26,356 nt of DNA from a virus, in the IMG/VR virus record IMGVR_UViG_3300032288_000464, positions 1 to 26,356 of that record, one strand, 5' to 3'. Every line of letters begins with the position of its first letter. Within the stretch, counting starts at the first letter, position 1. Positions 8,002 to 20,656 of this stretch are shown one piece after another. The notes below the pieces were generated by a model that did no database searches, was not told the DNA's origin, and worked only from the letters and a program-made list of their open reading frames with translations. A program made the translations under genes and the position numbers.

Positions 8002-8916
8002 ATGGCTACGCCGATGCGTTCAACCGACTTTCGTTCAATCGTCGAACCGATCCTGAACGAAGAGTTTAATGGTATCTACGAACAACGTGCCGACGAATGG
8101 GCACAGGTCTTCAAAGAGTTTAAGGGTATTCCCCGCAACTACCATGAAGAGCCTGTCCTGTACGGTTTCGGTGCAGCTCCTGAGCTGCCCGATGGCATGC
8201 CCGTCACCTATCAATCGGGTGGCGTCCTCTTCATCCAGCGTTATGTGTACAAAGTGTATGGCCTTGCCTTCGCTTTGACCAAAGTGCTGGTGGAAGATGG
8301 CGATCACATCCGTATCGGTCAGACCTATGCGCGTCACCTCGCACAGTCGCTGATCGAAACCAAGGAAACCCTTGGTGCAAACATTCTGAACCGTTCGTTC
8401 ACTGCGGCTTACCCCGGCGGCGACGGTAAAGAACTGGTTGCCACGGATCACCCGATTGTCAGCGGCACATTCAGCAACAAGCTTTCGACCGCAGCGAACC
8501 TTTCGCAAACGTCGCTTGAGCAGTTGCTGATCCAAATCCGCAACGCAGTGGACAACAACGGCAAGCGTATTCGCTTAACACCGAAGAAGCTTGTGGTTGG
8601 CCCGTCCAACGTGTTCCAAGCGGAAGTGCTGCTGAAGAGCGTACTACGTGCAGGTACTGCTAACAACGATATTAACCCTGTAAAATCAATGGGTTTGCTC
8701 GATGGTGGTCAGGCCAACCTGTCGCGTATTACATCAACGACTGCATGGTGGGTCGAAACCGACGCCCCAGAAGGTCTGAAGCTCGCAATGCGTCGTGGTC
8801 TTGAAAAGAGCATGGAAGGCGATTTCGAAACCGACTCCATGCGCTACAAGGCTACAGAGCGTTACGCTTTTGGCTGGACGGATCCGCGCGGCGTGTACGG
8901 CACGCCGGGCATCTAA
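8002..8916 (+). CDS. Major capsid protein
   Basis: Shell-forming protein, 304 residues, probably HK97-fold of the Mu gpT-like group. Visible hallmarks are a helical N-terminus ending in WAQVFKEFKGIPRN, a middle helix (YARHLAQSLIETKETLGANILNR), the segment ATDHPIVSG and the typical LTPKKLVVGPSNVFQAEVLLKS strand-helix near residues 193-214. The C-terminal part contains SMRYKATERYAFGWTDPRG. A strong ribosome-binding site (GGGAGGG) precedes it and a GC-rich hairpin follows the stop. Codon use differs from the packaging genes: 13 of 18 Arg codons are CGT by my count, as expected for a very highly expressed gene. Family level is recognised by eye; a profile search would settle the fold. Confidence 0.9.
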   Translation: MATPMRSTDFRSIVEPILNEEFNGIYEQRADEWAQVFKEFKGIPRNYHEEPVLYGFGAAPELPDGMPVTYQSGGVLFIQRYVYKVYGLAFALTKVLVEDGDHIRIGQTYARHLAQSLIETKETLGANILNRSFTAAYPGGDGKELVATDHPIVSGTFSNKLSTAANLSQTSLEQLLIQIRNAVDNNGKRIRLTPKKLVVGPSNVFQAEVLLKSVLRAGTANNDINPVKSMGLLDGGQANLSRITSTTAWWVETDAPEGLKLAMRRGLEKSMEGDFETDSMRYKATERYAFGWTDPRGVYGTPGI

Positions 8917-8967: not shown

Positions 8968-9669
8968 ATGGGTAACAATGTAGTCACCCGCTTTCAGTAT
9001 GGCGTGACAAACGTCGGTCAGGACACCCTGTTCGCAGACATGGTGCAACCCGACCCGACGCTTTTTCACCAATACTTCAACGACTTCGACACCTATGTCG
9101 CTGGCGATTGGACAGTCACAGAAACCGACGCTGGGGCCACACAAGCCCTGACGGCCGGCGACGGTGGCCTGCTTCTTATCACCAACACGGCTGCGGATAA
9201 CGATCTCGTTGCTCTGCAAAAGAACCCTGCGGCTTGGAGCTTTACGGCTGGCAAGAAGAGTTTCTTCAGCGCCCGCTTTAAAGTCTCCGATGCCACGCAA
9301 TCGGATCTCGTCATTGGCCTTCAGGTTGTTGACGCAACGCCCCTCGATGTGACGGACGGTGTGTACTTCCTTAAAGCTGACGGCGCAGCCACGGTTAACG
9401 TGATCTGCCGCAAGAACGCCACGACTGGCTCAACATCTGCTTCCGCCATCGCCACCTTAGCCGATGATACTTTCATTACGCTGGGCTGGTATTACGACGG
9501 TGACAGCAAGATTGCTTATGCAGTCAACGGTTCGGTGCTTGGCTCGCTGGACGCTTCGTCGTCCTACTTGCCCGACACCAACGTCACGGTGAGCTTTGCC
9601 CTTCAAAACGGCGAAGCGGTAGCTAAGACAATGACCGTGGACTACATTTACGTTGCCAAAGAGCGGTGA
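8968..9669 (+). CDS. Lectin-like beta-sandwich virion protein
   Basis: The 233-residue product has a short N-terminal region (about 1-40) followed by a jelly-roll-type domain. Alternating strands include GGLLLITNTAADNDLVALQ, SFFSARFKVSD, DLVIGLQVVD, DGVYFLKADG, FITLGWYYDGDSKIAYAVNG and MTVDYIYVAKE. This pattern resembles concanavalin/LamG-like domains found on phage surfaces. It lies just after the capsid gene, so a head fibre or decoration protein is the best guess. The ribosome-binding site is TTAGGAG. The ligand, if any, is unknown, and the fold is inferred from the strand pattern. Confidence 0.75.
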   Translation: MGNNVVTRFQYGVTNVGQDTLFADMVQPDPTLFHQYFNDFDTYVAGDWTVTETDAGATQALTAGDGGLLLITNTAADNDLVALQKNPAAWSFTAGKKSFFSARFKVSDATQSDLVIGLQVVDATPLDVTDGVYFLKADGAATVNVICRKNATTGSTSASAIATLADDTFITLGWYYDGDSKIAYAVNGSVLGSLDASSSYLPDTNVTVSFALQNGEAVAKTMTVDYIYVAKER

Positions 9670-10400: not shown

Positions 10401-11339
10401 ATGCCTCGTGAATACGGATTAGACCCCTACGGCATCATTGCCAGCGGTAGCAGCATGTACGGCGGCACAACTGGCGGCTTTGGCGGCATGGGCTTCTCAC
10501 CCACGTTTAAAGGCGGTATGCCCGGCGTTAAGTTCCGCACGGCCTTTGCCGAAGGCGGCTACGCTGATGGCGGCATGGCGTCTTCCCTTCCGTTTATGGG
10601 CAGCACACCCCCGCCGCCTCAACGGGGCAACCCTTATGGCGGCATGGATAAGGATCAGCGCAAGTCTCTTAACGATATGCGCGCAGAGTACGGCTTGGGT
10701 GGCAAGAAGAACGCTCTCATGCCTCCTATGCCGGTGCAGCCGGGCTTTCCGTCCGCGCCGCAGGTGTTTAACGACTTGCCGTTTGTTGTGCCGGGCTGGG
10801 CAAACGATCCCAACGCCGTCAATTCTGGCGGTGCGCCGTCCTTAATAGATTACTTTACTGGCATGAGAGATTACCTTACTGGTTTGTCTTCTACACCGAC
10901 AAGCCCTGCGTCTCCGTCAGTGCCGCAAACGGGTATGGTATCTCCGTACCAAGCCCCGCGCGACGGATGGGTTGGCTATGGTAACGCCGTCAATTCTGGC
11001 GGTGCGCGGTCCTTAAACGAGTACTTTGTTGATCCGACAAGCCCTGCGTCTCCGTCAGTGCCGCAAATGCAAACAGACGGCACGCGGCCGTATGGCATGG
11101 GCGGCGCTTCGCCGTACACCATCAACCAGCCCGCAGGGCAAATGGGAGGGATGCCGCAATCTCCGATGCCGCAGTATCCTCAACCTACGCAACCGCAGCC
11201 GATGCAGCCTGCTATGACGCCGCAAGCGCAACGGCCGGGTCAGATGATGCGCGACCAGCGTCAGGATCAGCAGCAAATGCAGCAGCCGATGCAAGGCGGT
11301 CAGATGATGAACAGGCCGTTTGCTGTTCGCGGCCGATAA
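10401..11339 (+). CDS. Low-complexity Gly/Pro/Gln/Met protein with GG motifs
   Basis: The 312-residue product is mostly disordered. An N-terminal Gly-rich stretch leads to FAEGGYADGGMASS (from residue 49). A Pro/Ser region carries an internal duplication, and a Gln/Pro/Met-rich tail ends in MNRPFAVRGR. It is the first of four consecutive genes that carry an A-x-G-G motif. Proteins with such motifs occur in environmental phage genomes beside structural genes, without known function. A flexible virion or assembly factor is an inference. The ribosome-binding site is AGGGG. Confidence 0.75.
   Translation: MPREYGLDPYGIIASGSSMYGGTTGGFGGMGFSPTFKGGMPGVKFRTAFAEGGYADGGMASSLPFMGSTPPPPQRGNPYGGMDKDQRKSLNDMRAEYGLGGKKNALMPPMPVQPGFPSAPQVFNDLPFVVPGWANDPNAVNSGGAPSLIDYFTGMRDYLTGLSSTPTSPASPSVPQTGMVSPYQAPRDGWVGYGNAVNSGGARSLNEYFVDPTSPASPSVPQMQTDGTRPYGMGGASPYTINQPAGQMGGMPQSPMPQYPQPTQPQPMQPAMTPQAQRPGQMMRDQRQDQQQMQQPMQGGQMMNRPFAVRGR
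10812..11067 (+). repeat. Interspersed direct repeats A-B...A-B inside a coding gene
   Basis: Block A is 34 bases at 10812-10845 and again at 10983-11016 with one mismatch. Block B is 34 identical bases at 10896-10929 and 11034-11067. The order A-B-A-B shows one duplication followed by divergence or loss between blocks. Both repeat distances (171 and 138 bases) are multiples of three, so the frame is kept. The repeats encode NAVNSGGA-SL and TSPASPSVPQ. Confidence 0.9.
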
Positions 11340-11348
11340 GGGGCGAAG

Positions 11349-11894
11349 ATGTTTGATCTGGCTTTTGATCGTAACGCTGAAAAAGCCAAGCGTGACATAG
11401 ACGCAGCAGTGCGTATGTTCATGCCGCAGGCAGCGCCTCCTCCGCCCATGCCGCCGCAGGGCGGTATGCCTCCAATGGGCCAACCGCCTATGGGCATGCC
11501 TCCAATGCCGCCACAAGGGCCGCAGATGCCGCCTCAAGGCATGATGCCGCCTATGGGCCCACCTCAGATGCCTGCGCCTCCTATGGGCGGTTTACAGGCC
11601 GCTCAGGGGCCAATGCCCGCACCGCGTGCATTTGCTAAGGGCGGTGGTGTGTGGACGCGCAAGGAGGGGCAGAACCCCGAAGGCGGCCTGAATGCAAAGG
11701 GCCGTGCAAGCTTGCGCGCACAAGGCCACGACATCAAGCCGCCGGTAAGCGCCAAGCAGGCTAAGAAGTCTCCCAAGTCGGCAGCACGTCGCAAAAGCTT
11801 CTGCGCACGCACGAGCGGTATGCCGGGGCCGATGAAGGACGAAAAAGGTCGCCCGACACGCAAAGCGTTGTCACTTCGTAAGTGGGACTGCTGA
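11349..11894 (+). CDS. Pro/Met-rich protein with conserved basic C-terminal domain
   Basis: The 181-residue product has a helical start (MFDLAFDRNAEKAKRDIDAA), then a Pro/Met/Gln low-complexity region (about 25-90) made of repeats like GGMPPMGQPPMG. RAFAKGGGVW follows, then a compact basic domain: GGLNAKGRASLRAQG, KQAKKSPKSAARRKSFCARTSGMPG, KDEKGRPTRKALSLRKWDC at the very end. I recall this last domain as a phage family of unknown function (DUF6321, not checked). The basic domain could bind nucleic acid. The stop overlaps the next start (TGATG). Confidence 0.8.
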   Translation: MFDLAFDRNAEKAKRDIDAAVRMFMPQAAPPPPMPPQGGMPPMGQPPMGMPPMPPQGPQMPPQGMMPPMGPPQMPAPPMGGLQAAQGPMPAPRAFAKGGGVWTRKEGQNPEGGLNAKGRASLRAQGHDIKPPVSAKQAKKSPKSAARRKSFCARTSGMPGPMKDEKGRPTRKALSLRKWDC

Positions 11895-12421
11895 TGGACG
11901 ATGCGGCGTATCAAGCGTGGCTTAAAAGCAACAGCCTTACAGAGACGCCCGATTACGATTATCGCGGCGCTTTTGAGGCTGGGCTTAAACCTGATCCTGA
12001 GACGCACCATTTAGACGACACGTTCAAAAAGCCTAATCACATCACCTACTCCGGCGACAGCCGCTATGCGCGAGAAAAGGGCGCGCCGGCTGCCGGTAAG
12101 TGGGTTGCAGGTGAAGACGGCAAATGGACGTTTTACGCCGCGCCGACCAACGTGGCGAATGCGGGCGGTGTCGACGCCTTGCGCGATTATTTCAAGCGCA
12201 ACGAAAAAGACGCAATCCTCGTGCTGCCTGAAGCCAAGGCTGAGGGAGGCTTTGCGGTGAAGCCAATTTGGGATAAAAAACGTCCCAAGGATCTCGGTAA
12301 ACCCAAAGGGCTTTCCGATAAGAAAAAAGCCTTTGCAGTGCGCCGCGCGAAAGCTGCTGGGCGTCCCTATCCAAACCTCGTGGACAACATCGCCGCAGCG
12401 CGAAAGAAAAAGGGTAAATAA
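11894..12421 (+). CDS. Phage protein with GG motif and basic C-terminus, unknown
   Basis: I chose the ATG whose first base is the last base of the upstream stop (TGATG), giving 175 residues; an in-frame GTG lies 12 bases earlier. The N-terminal half has YDYRGAFEAGLKPDPETHHLDDTFKKPNH, a segment I have seen in many environmental phage proteins. Then come KWVAGEDGKWTFYAAP and a helical piece VDALRDYFKRNEKD. AKAEGGFAVK links this protein to its three neighbours by the shared motif. The C-terminus is strongly basic (KKKAFAVRRAKAAGRPYPN, ending ARKKKGK). Function unknown; a DNA-contacting or virion-interior role is only suggested by the charge. Confidence 0.8.
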   Translation: MDDAAYQAWLKSNSLTETPDYDYRGAFEAGLKPDPETHHLDDTFKKPNHITYSGDSRYAREKGAPAAGKWVAGEDGKWTFYAAPTNVANAGGVDALRDYFKRNEKDAILVLPEAKAEGGFAVKPIWDKKRPKDLGKPKGLSDKKKAFAVRRAKAAGRPYPNLVDNIAAARKKKGK

Positions 12422-13267
12422 ATGGACGGCTTCAAGAACAGCACCAAAACCCAGTACGCTATGGGCGGCGCGTGCAAGGGCTACGCTAAAGGCGGCGGCG
12501 TTAAAGGCGCAGCCAAGATCAGCAAGGTCATGGGCGAGTTTAAGTCTGGCGAGCTGCACAGCGGCTCCAAGTCAGGGCCTGTTGTAACAAACCCCAAGCA
12601 GGCGACTGCTATCGCCATGAGCGAAGCCCGCAAGGCTGGCGCTAAGATCCCGATGAAAAAAGAAGCAGGCGGCTCTGTTGCTGTCACCGCCGCTAACCCA
12701 ACGGCCACGACCGCCGCTGCGCCGGTGTCTCGCGAGCAGCAGCGTTACAACAAAATGGACAGCAAGTTCGACGCTCGCGTCGCTAAAATGCAGTCGAAAG
12801 TTGCCGACATGCCTACCGATCGACAGGCAGCGGCGCGCACTCGCCTCGGCCAAATGCAGTCACGCTTCGATGCGCGCTTGGCTAACGCCGCAACGCGCCT
12901 TCCTGCGCCGGCCGCCGCTAAAAAGGGCGGCATGATGAAGAAGGCAGATGGCGGCTCGGTTGAAGGCCCCGACGTGCTGATCGCTCGGATGACCAAGGAT
13001 GAACTGGCCGCAGGCCCAGAGGGCATTAAGACCGCCAAAGAGCGCATGGAGCGTGAAAAGATTGGCAAGGCAAGCGATCGCGAGATACGCATCAAGGAGC
13101 GGGTCAAAAAGTCCGTGCCTGTGCCGCGTGACAAGCCGCTTGTGCCGAACAAATACGAGGAAAGCTTGCTCAAGCGCCGCAGCGTTGAGGCTGGCGATCT
13201 TGATCCGCGCTTGATGCGTGAGCCTTACAAGCGCGGTGGTATGGCTGCTAAAAAAGGCAAATGCTGA
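12422..13267 (+). CDS. Basic GG-motif protein with DUF6496-like segment
   Basis: Starts immediately after the previous stop (TAAATG) with AAGGG upstream. The 281-residue product opens with GG motifs (YAMGGACKGYAKGGGVKG). Next comes KVMGEFKSGELHSGSKSGP and TNPKQATAIAMSEARKAG (about 36-78), a segment I recall as DUF6496 in phage proteins. A coiled-coil region follows (SREQQRYNKMDSKFDARVAKMQSKV) with two similar helical repeats containing MQSKFDAR-type and MQSRFDAR, then KKGGMMKKADGGSV and a charged tail ending YKRGGMAAKKGKC. It is last before a strong terminator. The function is unknown, and the high Lys/Arg content could suit DNA or scaffold contact. Confidence 0.8.
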   Translation: MDGFKNSTKTQYAMGGACKGYAKGGGVKGAAKISKVMGEFKSGELHSGSKSGPVVTNPKQATAIAMSEARKAGAKIPMKKEAGGSVAVTAANPTATTAAAPVSREQQRYNKMDSKFDARVAKMQSKVADMPTDRQAAARTRLGQMQSRFDARLANAATRLPAPAAAKKGGMMKKADGGSVEGPDVLIARMTKDELAAGPEGIKTAKERMEREKIGKASDREIRIKERVKKSVPVPRDKPLVPNKYEESLLKRRSVEAGDLDPRLMREPYKRGGMAAKKGKC

Positions 13268-13271
13268 CACA

Positions 13272-13307
13272 GGCTCGGCCCTCTGATTTACAGGGGGCCA
13301 GCCTTTT
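13272..13307 (+). terminator. Strong bipartite rho-independent terminator
   Basis: A 9-bp inner stem (13277-13285 with 13291-13299, one G-U pair) closes a 5-base loop. A further 4-bp stem GGCT/AGCC extends it, separated by one bulged C (13276). TTTT follows at 13304-13307. It lies right after the GG-motif gene block and before the adaptor gene, so it marks a transcription boundary. The gap to 13379 holds an AT-rich TATATGTATTT that might be part of a promoter, but no good -35 is visible. Confidence 0.85.
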
Positions 13308-13379: not shown

Positions 13380-14366
13380 ATGGCATACTCTGGCACTATA
13401 TCTCAAACAGTCTTTAATACGCGGCGCGTCATTGAAAACGCTGTGCGCCGCTGTAAGCTGACTGCGCAGCAGATCACGGCCGAATACGTCGATATAGCCA
13501 ACGACCAACTTTACCTCCTGCTCTCCGATCTAGCCAATCAGGGCGTGCCCCTGTGGTGCATCGAGAAGCAGATATTGCCTCTTTACGCTGGCGTTGCCGA
13601 AGTTGCTTTAGAAACGTCCACCGTGGACATTTTAAACAGCAATTTGCGCTATTTGCAGACCGTGTCAGGCACGAACTACGACACGTCCACCGAACGCGAA
13701 ATAGATTTCACCAGTGATACTTTCGTCACCACGCTTGGCATCCTTTGGTCTGCGGCCGCCGTGCCGATCGCCATTGAGGTGTCAGACGACGGCCTGACGT
13801 GGGTCACTGAGCAAACCGAGACGCCCACGGCCTCTGCGGGGCAGTGGACGTGGTACGACATCAATACGCAAGTTCAGGCGCGCTGGTGGCGCGTGCGAGC
13901 CACGTCTGGAACGCTGGGCTTCAGCCGCATCTATACGGGTAACACGCCAACGGAAATCCCGCTGGCGCGCATGAATCGCGACGACTATACAAACCTGCCG
14001 AACAAAAGCTTCCAGTCGCAACGGCCTCTGCAATTTTGGTTTGATCGCCAAATACCGCAGCCGATCATGCACCTTTGGCCTGTGCCCAATTTGGCCGCCG
14101 AAGTTTATCAGATCGTTATCTGGCGTCACCGTTACATCATGGATGTGGGTTCCATGACGCAAGAGCTTGAAGTGCCGCAACGCTGGTACGAGGCGATCGT
14201 GGCGGGCTTGGCTGCAAAGCTGGCTATGGAGATCGTTGAGGTCGATCCTCAGATGATCGGCATGCTCGACGGTAAAGCAGCTATGGCCTTGGCAGTTGCG
14301 CAGGCAGAAGAGCGCGACAACAGCCCGATGATGATCCAGCCCAACATCTCACCGTATACGAGGTGA
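13380..14366 (+). CDS. Head-tail adaptor-like protein with inserted beta domain
   Basis: The 328-residue product has the outline of a podovirus adaptor. N-terminal helices (TRRVIENAVRRCKLTAQQ, EYVDIANDQLYLLLSDLANQG) are followed by a strand pair with HLWPVPNLAAEVYQIVIWRHRY (231-252). The helical end EVPQRWYEAIVAGLAAKLAMEI is typical of T7 gp11/P22 gp4-type adaptors. Residues about 118-185 look like a separate beta domain: IAIEVSDDGLTWVTE, QWTWYDINTQVQARWWRVRA, resembling discoidin/F5-8-type folds. I chose ATG 13380 (AGGA five bases upstream); an ATG at 13329 would add 17 residues without a good site. The adaptor role is inferred from the pattern; the insert is unusual. Confidence 0.65.
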   Translation: MAYSGTISQTVFNTRRVIENAVRRCKLTAQQITAEYVDIANDQLYLLLSDLANQGVPLWCIEKQILPLYAGVAEVALETSTVDILNSNLRYLQTVSGTNYDTSTEREIDFTSDTFVTTLGILWSAAAVPIAIEVSDDGLTWVTEQTETPTASAGQWTWYDINTQVQARWWRVRATSGTLGFSRIYTGNTPTEIPLARMNRDDYTNLPNKSFQSQRPLQFWFDRQIPQPIMHLWPVPNLAAEVYQIVIWRHRYIMDVGSMTQELEVPQRWYEAIVAGLAAKLAMEIVEVDPQMIGMLDGKAAMALAVAQAEERDNSPMMIQPNISPYTR

Positions 14367-14370
14367 TGGC

Positions 14371-14601
14371 ATGGCAGTCGAAGGTTACCTCGACACGCGC
14401 GGCAAACAATATCTGGCAATCGCTATCTGCGATCGCTGCAAGCGCAAGTTCCCGTTGGAGGAATTGAAATCGGATCCCAACTCGCCGGGCCTGAAAGTGT
14501 GTCCGCAAGATTTGGATGTGCTGGATCCGTGGCGCGAGCCGCCGCCTGCGCCTGAGCAAATCGCTTTGATGTATCCGCGACCTGACGAGGCTCTGAGCTG
14601 A
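14371..14601 (+). CDS. Zinc-ribbon-like microprotein, copy 1
   Basis: The 76-residue product contains ICDRCKRKFPLEELKSDPNS with CxxC at residues 20 and 23 and a third Cys at 44 (VCPQDLD). In related phage proteins I recall, the second knuckle is also CxxC; here the fourth position is Asp. A three-Cys, one-Asp metal site, or a decayed zinc ribbon, is possible. The C-terminal part is Pro-rich. A GAGGTGA ribosome-binding site overlaps the end of the adaptor gene. Its stop overlaps the start of a paralogue (TGATG). Small proteins like this sit between neck and fibre genes in environmental phages; function unknown. Confidence 0.8.
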   Translation: MAVEGYLDTRGKQYLAIAICDRCKRKFPLEELKSDPNSPGLKVCPQDLDVLDPWREPPPAPEQIALMYPRPDEALS

Positions 14602-14915
14602 TGCCCCGTTGGTTGAACACAAAAGGTCGCCGCACGCTCGGCATCGGTATTTGCTCGCGTTGCAGCATCAAATATCCGCTTGAGATGCTGTCGCCCGACC
14701 CAAATTACCCCGGCTTGCGCGTTTGCGACAAGGATAAGGATCAATACGACCCTTATCGCCTGCCTGCGCGCCAGCCTGACCGCATTACGCTGCCCTTTAC
14801 TCGCCCTGATACGCCTATCCCGACCAATCCATCGGGCGTGATCACGCAAGATGGCGATTACTTCTTAATTACGGAAGATGGCGACAGCTTCCTGACCGTG
14901 AGGGATGACGAGTGA
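14601..14915 (+). CDS. Zinc-ribbon-like microprotein, copy 2
   Basis: Paralogue of the preceding gene: about half of the residues match over a 58-residue stretch (ICSRCSIKYPLEML, DPNYPGLRVC). It has Cys at 18, 21 and 42 and again Asp where a fourth Cys is expected (CDKDKD). The 104-residue product adds a C-terminal tail with two similar strands, DGDYFLITE and DGDSFLTV, a beta-hairpin repeat common in phage tail-associated proteins. Start and stop overlap both neighbours (TGATG and GTGA), so the three genes are tightly coupled. Function unknown. Confidence 0.8.
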   Translation: MPRWLNTKGRRTLGIGICSRCSIKYPLEMLSPDPNYPGLRVCDKDKDQYDPYRLPARQPDRITLPFTRPDTPIPTNPSGVITQDGDYFLITEDGDSFLTVRDDE

Positions 14916-19571: not shown

Positions 19572-20294
19572 TTGGCAAACGTAAAAATATCAGAGCTGCC
19601 ATTAGCAACCACGCCACTGGCGGGGACGGAGCTGCTGGAGCTTGTCCAAAGCGGATCAAGCGTTGCTGTGGCAGCCAGTGACGTTGCGGCGTCTTTTGCC
19701 ACTGACGCGGGCAACATCCTGCCGGTCGCCAACGGCGGCACGGGCGCGGCGACCCTGACGGGTTATGTCAAAGGCTCCGGCACATCGGTTATGACGGCCG
19801 CAAGCACTATCCCTTTTGCCGATATGGCTGGGCGCGCGTATTGCGATTTTGTTGATACCGCAGATCAGACGGGCAACACGGGCGCAGCCACGGCGGTTAA
19901 GTTTAATACGAGCAATATTGCTACGGGCATCACGATTGCGAACGATGGTGGTGGCAACCCGACTTGGATCACCTTTGCGGCTGCTGGCACATATATGTTC
20001 ACACCCAGCCTTCAGTTTTATAACTCTGACAGCACCAACCATCCGGCGACTGTGTGGGTCGCCTTAAACGGCACGCGCGTCGCTAACACTGCTTCAAACA
20101 TATCTGTGCCTAAAGTTGCAGACGGCGGCACAACTGTTTTTGCTACCACGTTCGTGCTGACTGTCACAGCAGGGCAGTATGTTCAGATTATGTGGCTGCC
20201 TGCAAACGTGGCGGTAACACTCGATTACACGGCCGCTGGCGCAATCGCTCCGGCCATCCCATCGTCCATCTTCAACGCAGTAAGGATTGCTTGA
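19572..20294 (+). CDS. Third fibre-like protein, C-terminal jelly-roll
   Basis: I use a TTG start because the reading begins NVKISELPLATTPLAGTELL, the standard fibre N-terminus, directly after GAGGTGATGCC. An ATG inside that site opens only a five-codon frame. The 240-residue product continues with AASDVAASFATD and VANGGTGAATLTGYVKG. A C-terminal beta domain (about 100-240) contains GNPTWITFAAAGTYMFTPSLQF, VWVALNGTRV and GQYVQIMWLPANV, resembling TNF/C1q-like jelly-rolls. In other phages such trimeric domains act as fibre heads. Role: probable host-contact or attachment fibre. The stop overlaps the next start (TGATG). Confidence 0.8.
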   Translation: MANVKISELPLATTPLAGTELLELVQSGSSVAVAASDVAASFATDAGNILPVANGGTGAATLTGYVKGSGTSVMTAASTIPFADMAGRAYCDFVDTADQTGNTGAATAVKFNTSNIATGITIANDGGGNPTWITFAAAGTYMFTPSLQFYNSDSTNHPATVWVALNGTRVANTASNISVPKVADGGTTVFATTFVLTVTAGQYVQIMWLPANVAVTLDYTAAGAIAPAIPSSIFNAVRIA

Positions 20295-20656
20295 TGATTG
20301 AAGATCTTATCAGCCGCGTGTTTTATACACGCAACGTAGCGCACTGGCAGCACTGGCGCGCAAAAGGCGCTGGTAGCTACGCTAAACATAAAGCCCTCGG
20401 CAATTTTTACGATGATGTGATTGAGGCTTTGGATCCGCTGGTTGAGGCGTATCAGGGTGCTTTTGATCTGGTCGGCACAATCCCCGCACCACCCAAGGCC
20501 AAGGATGACATCCTTGCGCACCTTGAGGGTGAGGCTGCGTGGATTGAGGAGCATCACGAAGATATTTGCCAAGGCAATCGTGCTGTCGCGAACTTGATTG
20601 ATGGCCTCACAGCCGTATATCTGACCGCGATATATAAATTGCGCAATCTTAAATAA
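20294..20656 (+). CDS. All-helical 120-residue protein (DUF5856-like)
   Basis: The start overlaps the upstream stop (TGATG). The product is helical throughout: MIEDLISRVFYTRNVAHWQHW, then SYAKHKALGNFYDDVIEALD, VEAYQGAFDLVG and a C-terminal pair ANLIDGLTAVYLTAIYKLRN. His and aromatic residues in the first two helices recall small ferritin/Dps-like bundles. I recall a phage family of this shape named DUF5856, not checked. It sits just before the lysis genes in many environmental phages. No metal-binding set can be confirmed by eye, so a role in iron or DNA protection is only a hypothesis. Confidence 0.75.
   Translation: MIEDLISRVFYTRNVAHWQHWRAKGAGSYAKHKALGNFYDDVIEALDPLVEAYQGAFDLVGTIPAPPKAKDDILAHLEGEAAWIEEHHEDICQGNRAVANLIDGLTAVYLTAIYKLRNLK

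Follow-up and report, generated by a model that had tools for sequence, protein, structure and literature searches.

A shared Gly-Gly motif at domain joints in a block of phage proteins that may be packaged in the virion

The IMG/VR virus record IMGVR_UViG_3300032288_000464, a 26-kb stretch of water-borne phage DNA (26,356 nucleotides) that we analysed in full and call the window, carries a block of four consecutive genes (10401-13267) whose products, P1 to P4, share the short motif A[KED]GG. The motif is strongly enriched in these proteins and in their counterparts in related phages. It lies at the joints ahead of three conserved domains, which exchange partners between phages and keep a fixed gene order. 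We propose, with middling confidence, that the block encodes virion-packaged modular proteins, in which basic domains would act as tags for variable cargo and the motif as a flexible joint or docking site. The original prediction drew attention to a motif shared across unrelated folds; this observation is confirmed and proves stronger than initially stated. Its interpretation holds in part, as the shared motif stands and the processing step proposed along with it is not supported.

The four proteins and their shared motif

All features of the block lie on the plus strand. P1 (10401-11339) is a 312-residue protein rich in Gly, Pro, Gln and Met, with AEGG at 10548-10559, ADGG at 10563-10574 and FAVRGR at its end; profile searches detected no conserved domain in it. 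P2 (11349-11894) has a Pro/Met-rich N-terminus, the joint FAKGGGV (AKGG at 11634-11645) and a C-terminal DUF6321 domain (PF19846; 11670-11891), matched by residues 108-179 with 84.6 bits against a curated cut-off of 28.5 (E 7.5e-24). P3 (11894-12421) consists of an N-terminal domain, P3N (11894-12232), the joint AEGGFAVK (AEGG at 12239-12250) and the GRPYPNLVDN domain ('DYPN'; 12260-12418), where residues 124-174 match the phrog_34011 profile with E 3e-13. P4 (12422-13267) carries DUF6496 (PF20106; 12509-12661) near its N-terminus (residues 30-80; 41.6 bits against a curated cut-off of 24, E 1.7e-10), followed by a long basic tail with a C-terminal Cys; its motifs are AKGG (12485-12496), KKGG (12920-12931), ADGG (12944-12955) and KRGG (13229-13240). 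As originally claimed, three of the four genes contain conserved domains, and all of the peptides and gene positions quoted at that time are present in the window.

In P1-P4, A[KED]GG occurs 6 times, against 0.22 expected from composition (none of 20,000 shuffles reaches 6), and [FY]A[KED]GG 4 times against 0.012, while all other window proteins contain a single A[KED]GG (0.81 expected). Because the motif had been chosen on the window proteins themselves, it was re-tested in relatives. Related loci were collected on the basis of their similarity to either the capsid protein or one of the domains; their genes were called anew by us and reduced to 1,955 dissimilar proteins, and many of the records are fragments. 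The genes between the capsid gene and the adaptor gene are referred to as the slot. Slot proteins of the relatives contain 104 motifs where 10.2 are expected, an expectation that, like the shuffles, addresses composition and not the descent that the relatives share. The reversed motif (12 observed, 10.8 expected) and the permuted motif (1 observed, 10.6 expected) served as controls. Also enriched (33 against 4.2) is the insert between terminase and portal, a large multidomain gene. The motif is at or below chance in the capsid, portal, terminase, scaffold and adaptor proteins of the relatives, and the genes that remain in loci with a capsid gene give 14 against 13.7. In the relatives, the motif is confined to these two gene positions, the capsid-adaptor slot and the terminase-portal insert, and across unrelated folds it is specific to this block and that one further position. 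Neither the insert proteins nor the ejection proteins show recognisable kinship with P2-P4. The excess over composition, the comparison on which the original prediction had made its claim depend, is thus found in the window and in the relatives alike. The relatives refine the motif to [FY]-A-[KED]-G-G-x-[VA].

Two other origins of the motif were discarded. Chance arising from composition is ruled out by the shuffles together with the reversed and permuted motifs. A role at the DNA level, such as a recombination site, was considered in view of an unusual codon bias within the motif; the bias is equal in other Gly-Gly and Ala-[KED] contexts and is therefore a codon-context effect.

The insert between terminase and portal encodes, in many relatives and not in the window, a polymorphic protein of 650-1540 residues with PcfJ, SLT or DUF6973 domains and several [FY]A[KED]GG motifs (L058 1955-4549, L030 1654-4527, L041 2-4174, L046 49-4374). 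A stand-alone GRPYPNLVDN gene sometimes precedes it.

The location of the motif was quantified over distinct junctions in the relatives, using the wider form [AKRQ][KEDRQ]GG and the 20 residues upstream of each domain. It precedes DUF6321 at 31 of 48 junctions (1.6 expected), the GRPYPNLVDN domain at 32 of 36 (0.8 expected) and DUF6496 at 45 of 54 (2.6 expected). Many of the motif-less junctions before DUF6321 read ASGG, ATGG or AAGG. The distance to the domain is mostly 0-3 residues, or the motif overlaps the domain start. It also occurs at free ends: some stand-alone DUF6321 proteins start with MAKGG, and proteins of relatives at the ejection position, which carry the motif often near the C-terminus, may end in ...YAEGGIVEETCA or ...FAEGGLAELASKYAD. 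P4-like proteins of relatives repeat it up to five times; the motifs of the window are internal or near the C-terminus.

It is possible, although we doubt it, that the motif is a mere flexible hinge, a Gly-Gly tolerated between shuffled domains and spread by descent or recombination, with no common partner. Its position at domain joints, the unfolded joint in the predicted DUF6321 structure and the visible shuffling of domains in relatives all fit such a hinge. However, the enrichment is not matched by permuted or reversed motifs or by Gly-Gly in other surroundings, and [FY] before and [VA] after the motif are also favoured. The motif is further present at free termini, in repeats along the disordered P4 tails and in unrelated large proteins. 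Cyanophage isolates join DUF6321 without the motif, though plain linkers would serve there too.

The sequence FAVR, noted earlier as common to P1 and P3, is indeed present in both, but this is mostly coincidence; the P3 copy lies in a stretch that is not conserved in relatives. The notable element of P3 is FAVK directly after AEGG; the matching sequence in stand-alone relatives is their start, MSDFAVKP. Stand-alone tag proteins and tape-measure-like proteins again have FAVK or FAVR beside the joint. A 45-nt element encoding NAVNSGGAxSLxxYF occurs twice in P1 (10812-10856 and 10983-11027), with a third, diverged copy in P3 (12149-12193). This copy falls inside P3N and is the sole link between P1 and P3N.

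Domain exchange and proposed virion location

Among 149 distinct slots of relatives, all three domains are present in 26, at least one in 107 and the wider form of the motif in 124. Wherever more than one domain is present, the gene order is constant: DUF6321, GRPYPNLVDN, DUF6496. Co-occurrence in related phages, the second comparison by which the four-gene block was to be judged, is therefore found for three genes and fails for P1, of which no relative was found outside the window.

The partners of the domains vary. P3N is fused to the GRPYPNLVDN domain in the window and to DUF6321 in two related loci (L022 and L023); it also occurs alone, or in a 2915-residue protein with helicase, intein and InPase domains. 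In L239, an ADP-ribosyltransferase (ART-PolyVal, E 6e-15) replaces P3N on the GRPYPNLVDN domain, with KARGGLAV as the joint. ART-PolyVal is present in 1 of 12 related records and is thus a rare cargo. A 1017-residue protein encoded directly after the portal gene in another phage (L301 2138-5191) ends in DUF6321 and GRPYPNLVDN in tandem, so that two domains that are separate in the window are united there; it contains five DUF4214 repeats and a weak match to a cell-wall hydrolase (E 0.002), and its tags are joined by ADGGAIDDAL-type units. Among predicted structures of viral proteins, further DUF6321 fusions are annotated AAA, ferritin/DPS or 'virion protein'. DUF6321 was detected in about 540 records of a phage collection at a permissive cut-off, and close relatives of the domain on only 6 contigs among the genomes of 84,980 species; it is therefore essentially confined to phages. 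A profile of the P4 C-terminal part (P4C) was set aside, as it spread to basic and coiled proteins.

The three domains are strongly charged. DUF6321 has a net charge of +15 in 81 residues, the GRPYPNLVDN domain +15 in 53, and P4 +29 overall; P3N is acidic, the scaffold has -23, and P1 and the P2 N-terminus are close to neutral. The predicted structure of DUF6321 is a small helical fold (predicted local distance difference test, pLDDT, 85) with no fold match in the PDB, and the joint ahead of it is poorly ordered and of low confidence. P3N is predicted confidently as a compact fold (pLDDT 92); its sole clear structural match is with a phage protein that is uncharacterised, ahead of weaker matches to proteins of other phages, one with a glucosaminidase domain and one structural. 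By sequence, solved structures include no relatives of P2, and their matches to P3 and P4 are at chance level. A terminal cysteine is found in 37 of 62 distinct P4-like proteins (13262-13264 in the window), and most DUF6321 domains end in the same way.

We propose that the block encodes packaged proteins, probably internal to the head and co-ejected with the DNA, whose parts can be exchanged. The tags would be DUF6321, the GRPYPNLVDN domain and DUF6496, which probably keep the protein inside the head through binding to packaged DNA, to the acidic scaffold, or to the inner side of capsid or portal. The cargo on these tags would be the disordered Pro/Met tails and P3N in the window, and an ADP-ribosyltransferase or a hydrolase-like protein in relatives. 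The motif [FY]A[KED]GGx[VA] would form an unfolded joint ahead of each tag, and perhaps also a short docking site for a lineage-specific partner.

Published proteomes place two DUF6321 proteins in purified cyanophage virions (PMC10665884, PMC9602691). ORF137 of S-CREM2, a cyanomyovirus purified on caesium chloride (CsCl), was identified in the virion proteome by four unique peptides (PMC10665884) and has DUF6321 at residues 409-490 (E 4e-14). For S-SCSM1, likewise a CsCl-purified cyanomyovirus, 45 virion proteins were reported, 13 of them of unknown function (PMC9602691). S-SCSM1_29, with DUF6321 at residues 439-517, is labelled 'virion protein' in its record; the label marks portal, capsid, neck and sheath and not the terminase subunits, and probably reflects detection. 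The common location in the virion that had been suggested is thus supported indirectly, through position, fusions and the published mass spectrometry of these DUF6321 proteins.

Several observations weigh against this proposal. The AxGG joint is missing from the cyanophage DUF6321 proteins, and the virion evidence therefore covers the tag and not the motif. The peptides of ORF137 span little of the protein (4.1%), and non-virion proteins, when abundant, can carry over into CsCl bands; no proteomic study of a phage with a capsid of this lineage came to light. In 42 of the 149 slots all three domains are absent, and in relative slots the tags are often small stand-alone proteins with no cargo. 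Caulobacter phage RW lacks the block despite a capsid protein 87.5% identical to that of the window (roseophage, pelagiphage and cyanophage relatives are more distant).

Other explanations and known systems

It has also to be considered that P1-P4 are histone- or protamine-like proteins that merely neutralise packaged DNA. All tags and P4 are strongly positive, and both DNA condensation and scaffold binding, as originally suggested, are compatible with the charges of the tags, P4 and the scaffold. We nevertheless consider neutralisation as the whole explanation unlikely: neither P1 nor the P2 N-terminus has much net charge, P3N is acidic, the partners include an enzyme, and a motif that takes K as well as E and D is not itself a charge motif. 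Condensation would be compatible as a sub-function of the tags.

A location on the outer surface of the head, with the slot proteins serving as cement or minor decoration, appears still less probable. The slot does come after the capsid gene, and in phage DSL-LC04, whose slot contains a DUF6321 gene, the capsid gene and the DUF6321 gene have a gene with a cement-protein annotation between them. However, there is a separate cement candidate, and highly basic, disordered and repetitive proteins with ART or hydrolase-like fusions are atypical of decoration proteins.

Cleavage of the motif by a protease, at head maturation or after ejection, is very unlikely: the motif is positioned ahead of domains and polyvalent proteins offer a precedent, some reportedly being cut before packaging (e.g., DdrB/DarA of phage P1; PMC5512222), but it is kept at N-termini (MAKGG...) and C-termini, where a cut would release nothing, and there is no peptidase among the best 25 of the 35 Pfam families of the near-complete relative G001. 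The processing step proposed earlier is not supported on these grounds. We know of no viral protease consensus, whether of T4 gp21 or of the adenovirus type, that the motif fits.

P2 and P4 match DUF6321 and DUF6496 above the curated cut-offs, and these families are names without function; a literature search found no paper mentioning either. Here both form part of a single modular block whose domains have a joint in common. A C-terminal element of tape-measure proteins, [FY]AxGGxV-GPGTGTSDSIxAxLSxGEYV, has the same [FY]AxGGxV core, for example GFATGGYVKGPGTGQSDSINARLSNGEFV in Salmonella phage Sasha. In contrast, its GPGTGTSDSI... half is not found in P1-P4, and the window proteins are small and mostly basic; AEGGFAVK of P3 has the same start as this element, with the remainder absent. 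Caulobacter phage RW encodes a protein with MARGGYAVKGPGTGRSDSIKANLSDGEYV in its ejection-protein region, and the block-bearing relatives G001 and G003 encode similar proteins. Many matches of the RW protein are annotated tape-measure proteins of long-tailed phages, three of which contain FATGGYVKGPGTGQSDSI, YATGGYVTGPGTGTSDSI and FAQGGPVIGPGTSTSDSI. Tape-measure proteins leave the virion via the tail, so [FY]AxGGxV is also part of phage proteins that exit by this route.

The internal proteins of T4 are small and basic, carry a loading signal and are co-ejected with the DNA, and the idea of small basic head proteins with a loading signal is common to both systems. The T4 capsid-targeting sequence is a short N-terminal peptide cleaved off by the gp21 protease, whereas the candidate signals here are small basic domains, the window motifs are internal or near the C-terminus, and no peptidase is among the best 25 Pfam families of G001 to suggest a protease. 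With podovirus ejection proteins of the T7/P22 type (PMC8954989), the block has the motif in common, through the ejection-position proteins of relatives; P1-P4, however, are small and encoded in the capsid-adaptor slot, not after the stabilisation gene. Polyvalent proteins (PMC5512222) are approached by the relative that joins ART-PolyVal to a GRPYPNLVDN tag and by P3N beside the polyvalent InPase domain. Recognised effector domains occur only in relatives, as profile searches found none in P1-P4, and a search of that paper found no mention of such a joint.

Genomic setting and significance

The genes of the window run from terminase, portal, GroES, a scaffold-like protein and the capsid protein through the slot to adaptor, tail and lysis genes and a stabilisation protein. 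The slot is bounded on the 5' side by the major capsid protein (8002-8916, plus strand; profile matches to Phage_capsid_4 / Mu gpT-like) and on the 3' side by an SU10-type adaptor (13380-14366, plus strand; E 2.8e-5, 25.1 bits, just below the 27-bit cut-off). Solved structures include no sequence relatives of the capsid protein, the adaptor or the ejection proteins. A terminator-like hairpin followed by UUUU (13271-13304, plus strand; -25.8 kcal/mol, z -4.7) closes the block. The block had been placed between the capsid segment and a strong terminator; the hairpin is indeed strong, but direct adjacency to the capsid gene does not hold, as genes at 8968 and 9727 intervene.

Next to the adaptor, two neighbouring look-alike small genes with CxxC pairs (14371-14601 and 14601-14915) are kept beside it in relatives. 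A small protein encoded amid the tail and lysis region (20294-20656) matches the PHROG 'starvation-inducible transcriptional regulator'. In Caulobacter phage RW (L270 827-3629), a gene for an S-adenosylmethionine (SAM)-dependent methyltransferase lies between two genes annotated as terminase large subunit, and the terminase of this phage is split or interrupted. Relative G001 encodes a GapR-like DNA-binding protein (L444-L446), which fits a kinship with Caulobacter phages.

Under the proposed packaging of P1-P4, DUF6321, DUF6496 and the GRPYPNLVDN domain, so far without function, become candidate virion tags with a testable role. More tentatively, they may belong to a general head-loading code across podoviruses and cyanomyoviruses of natural waters, consisting of a short docking motif and interchangeable basic tags that any protein could acquire for packaging and delivery, with ADP-ribosyltransferases, hydrolases, AAA and ferritin-like proteins as natural cargo. 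If the packaging proposal is right, tag fusions would offer a way to list the effectors that phages inject, and the domains could serve as ready-made tags from nature for bringing proteins into phage heads.

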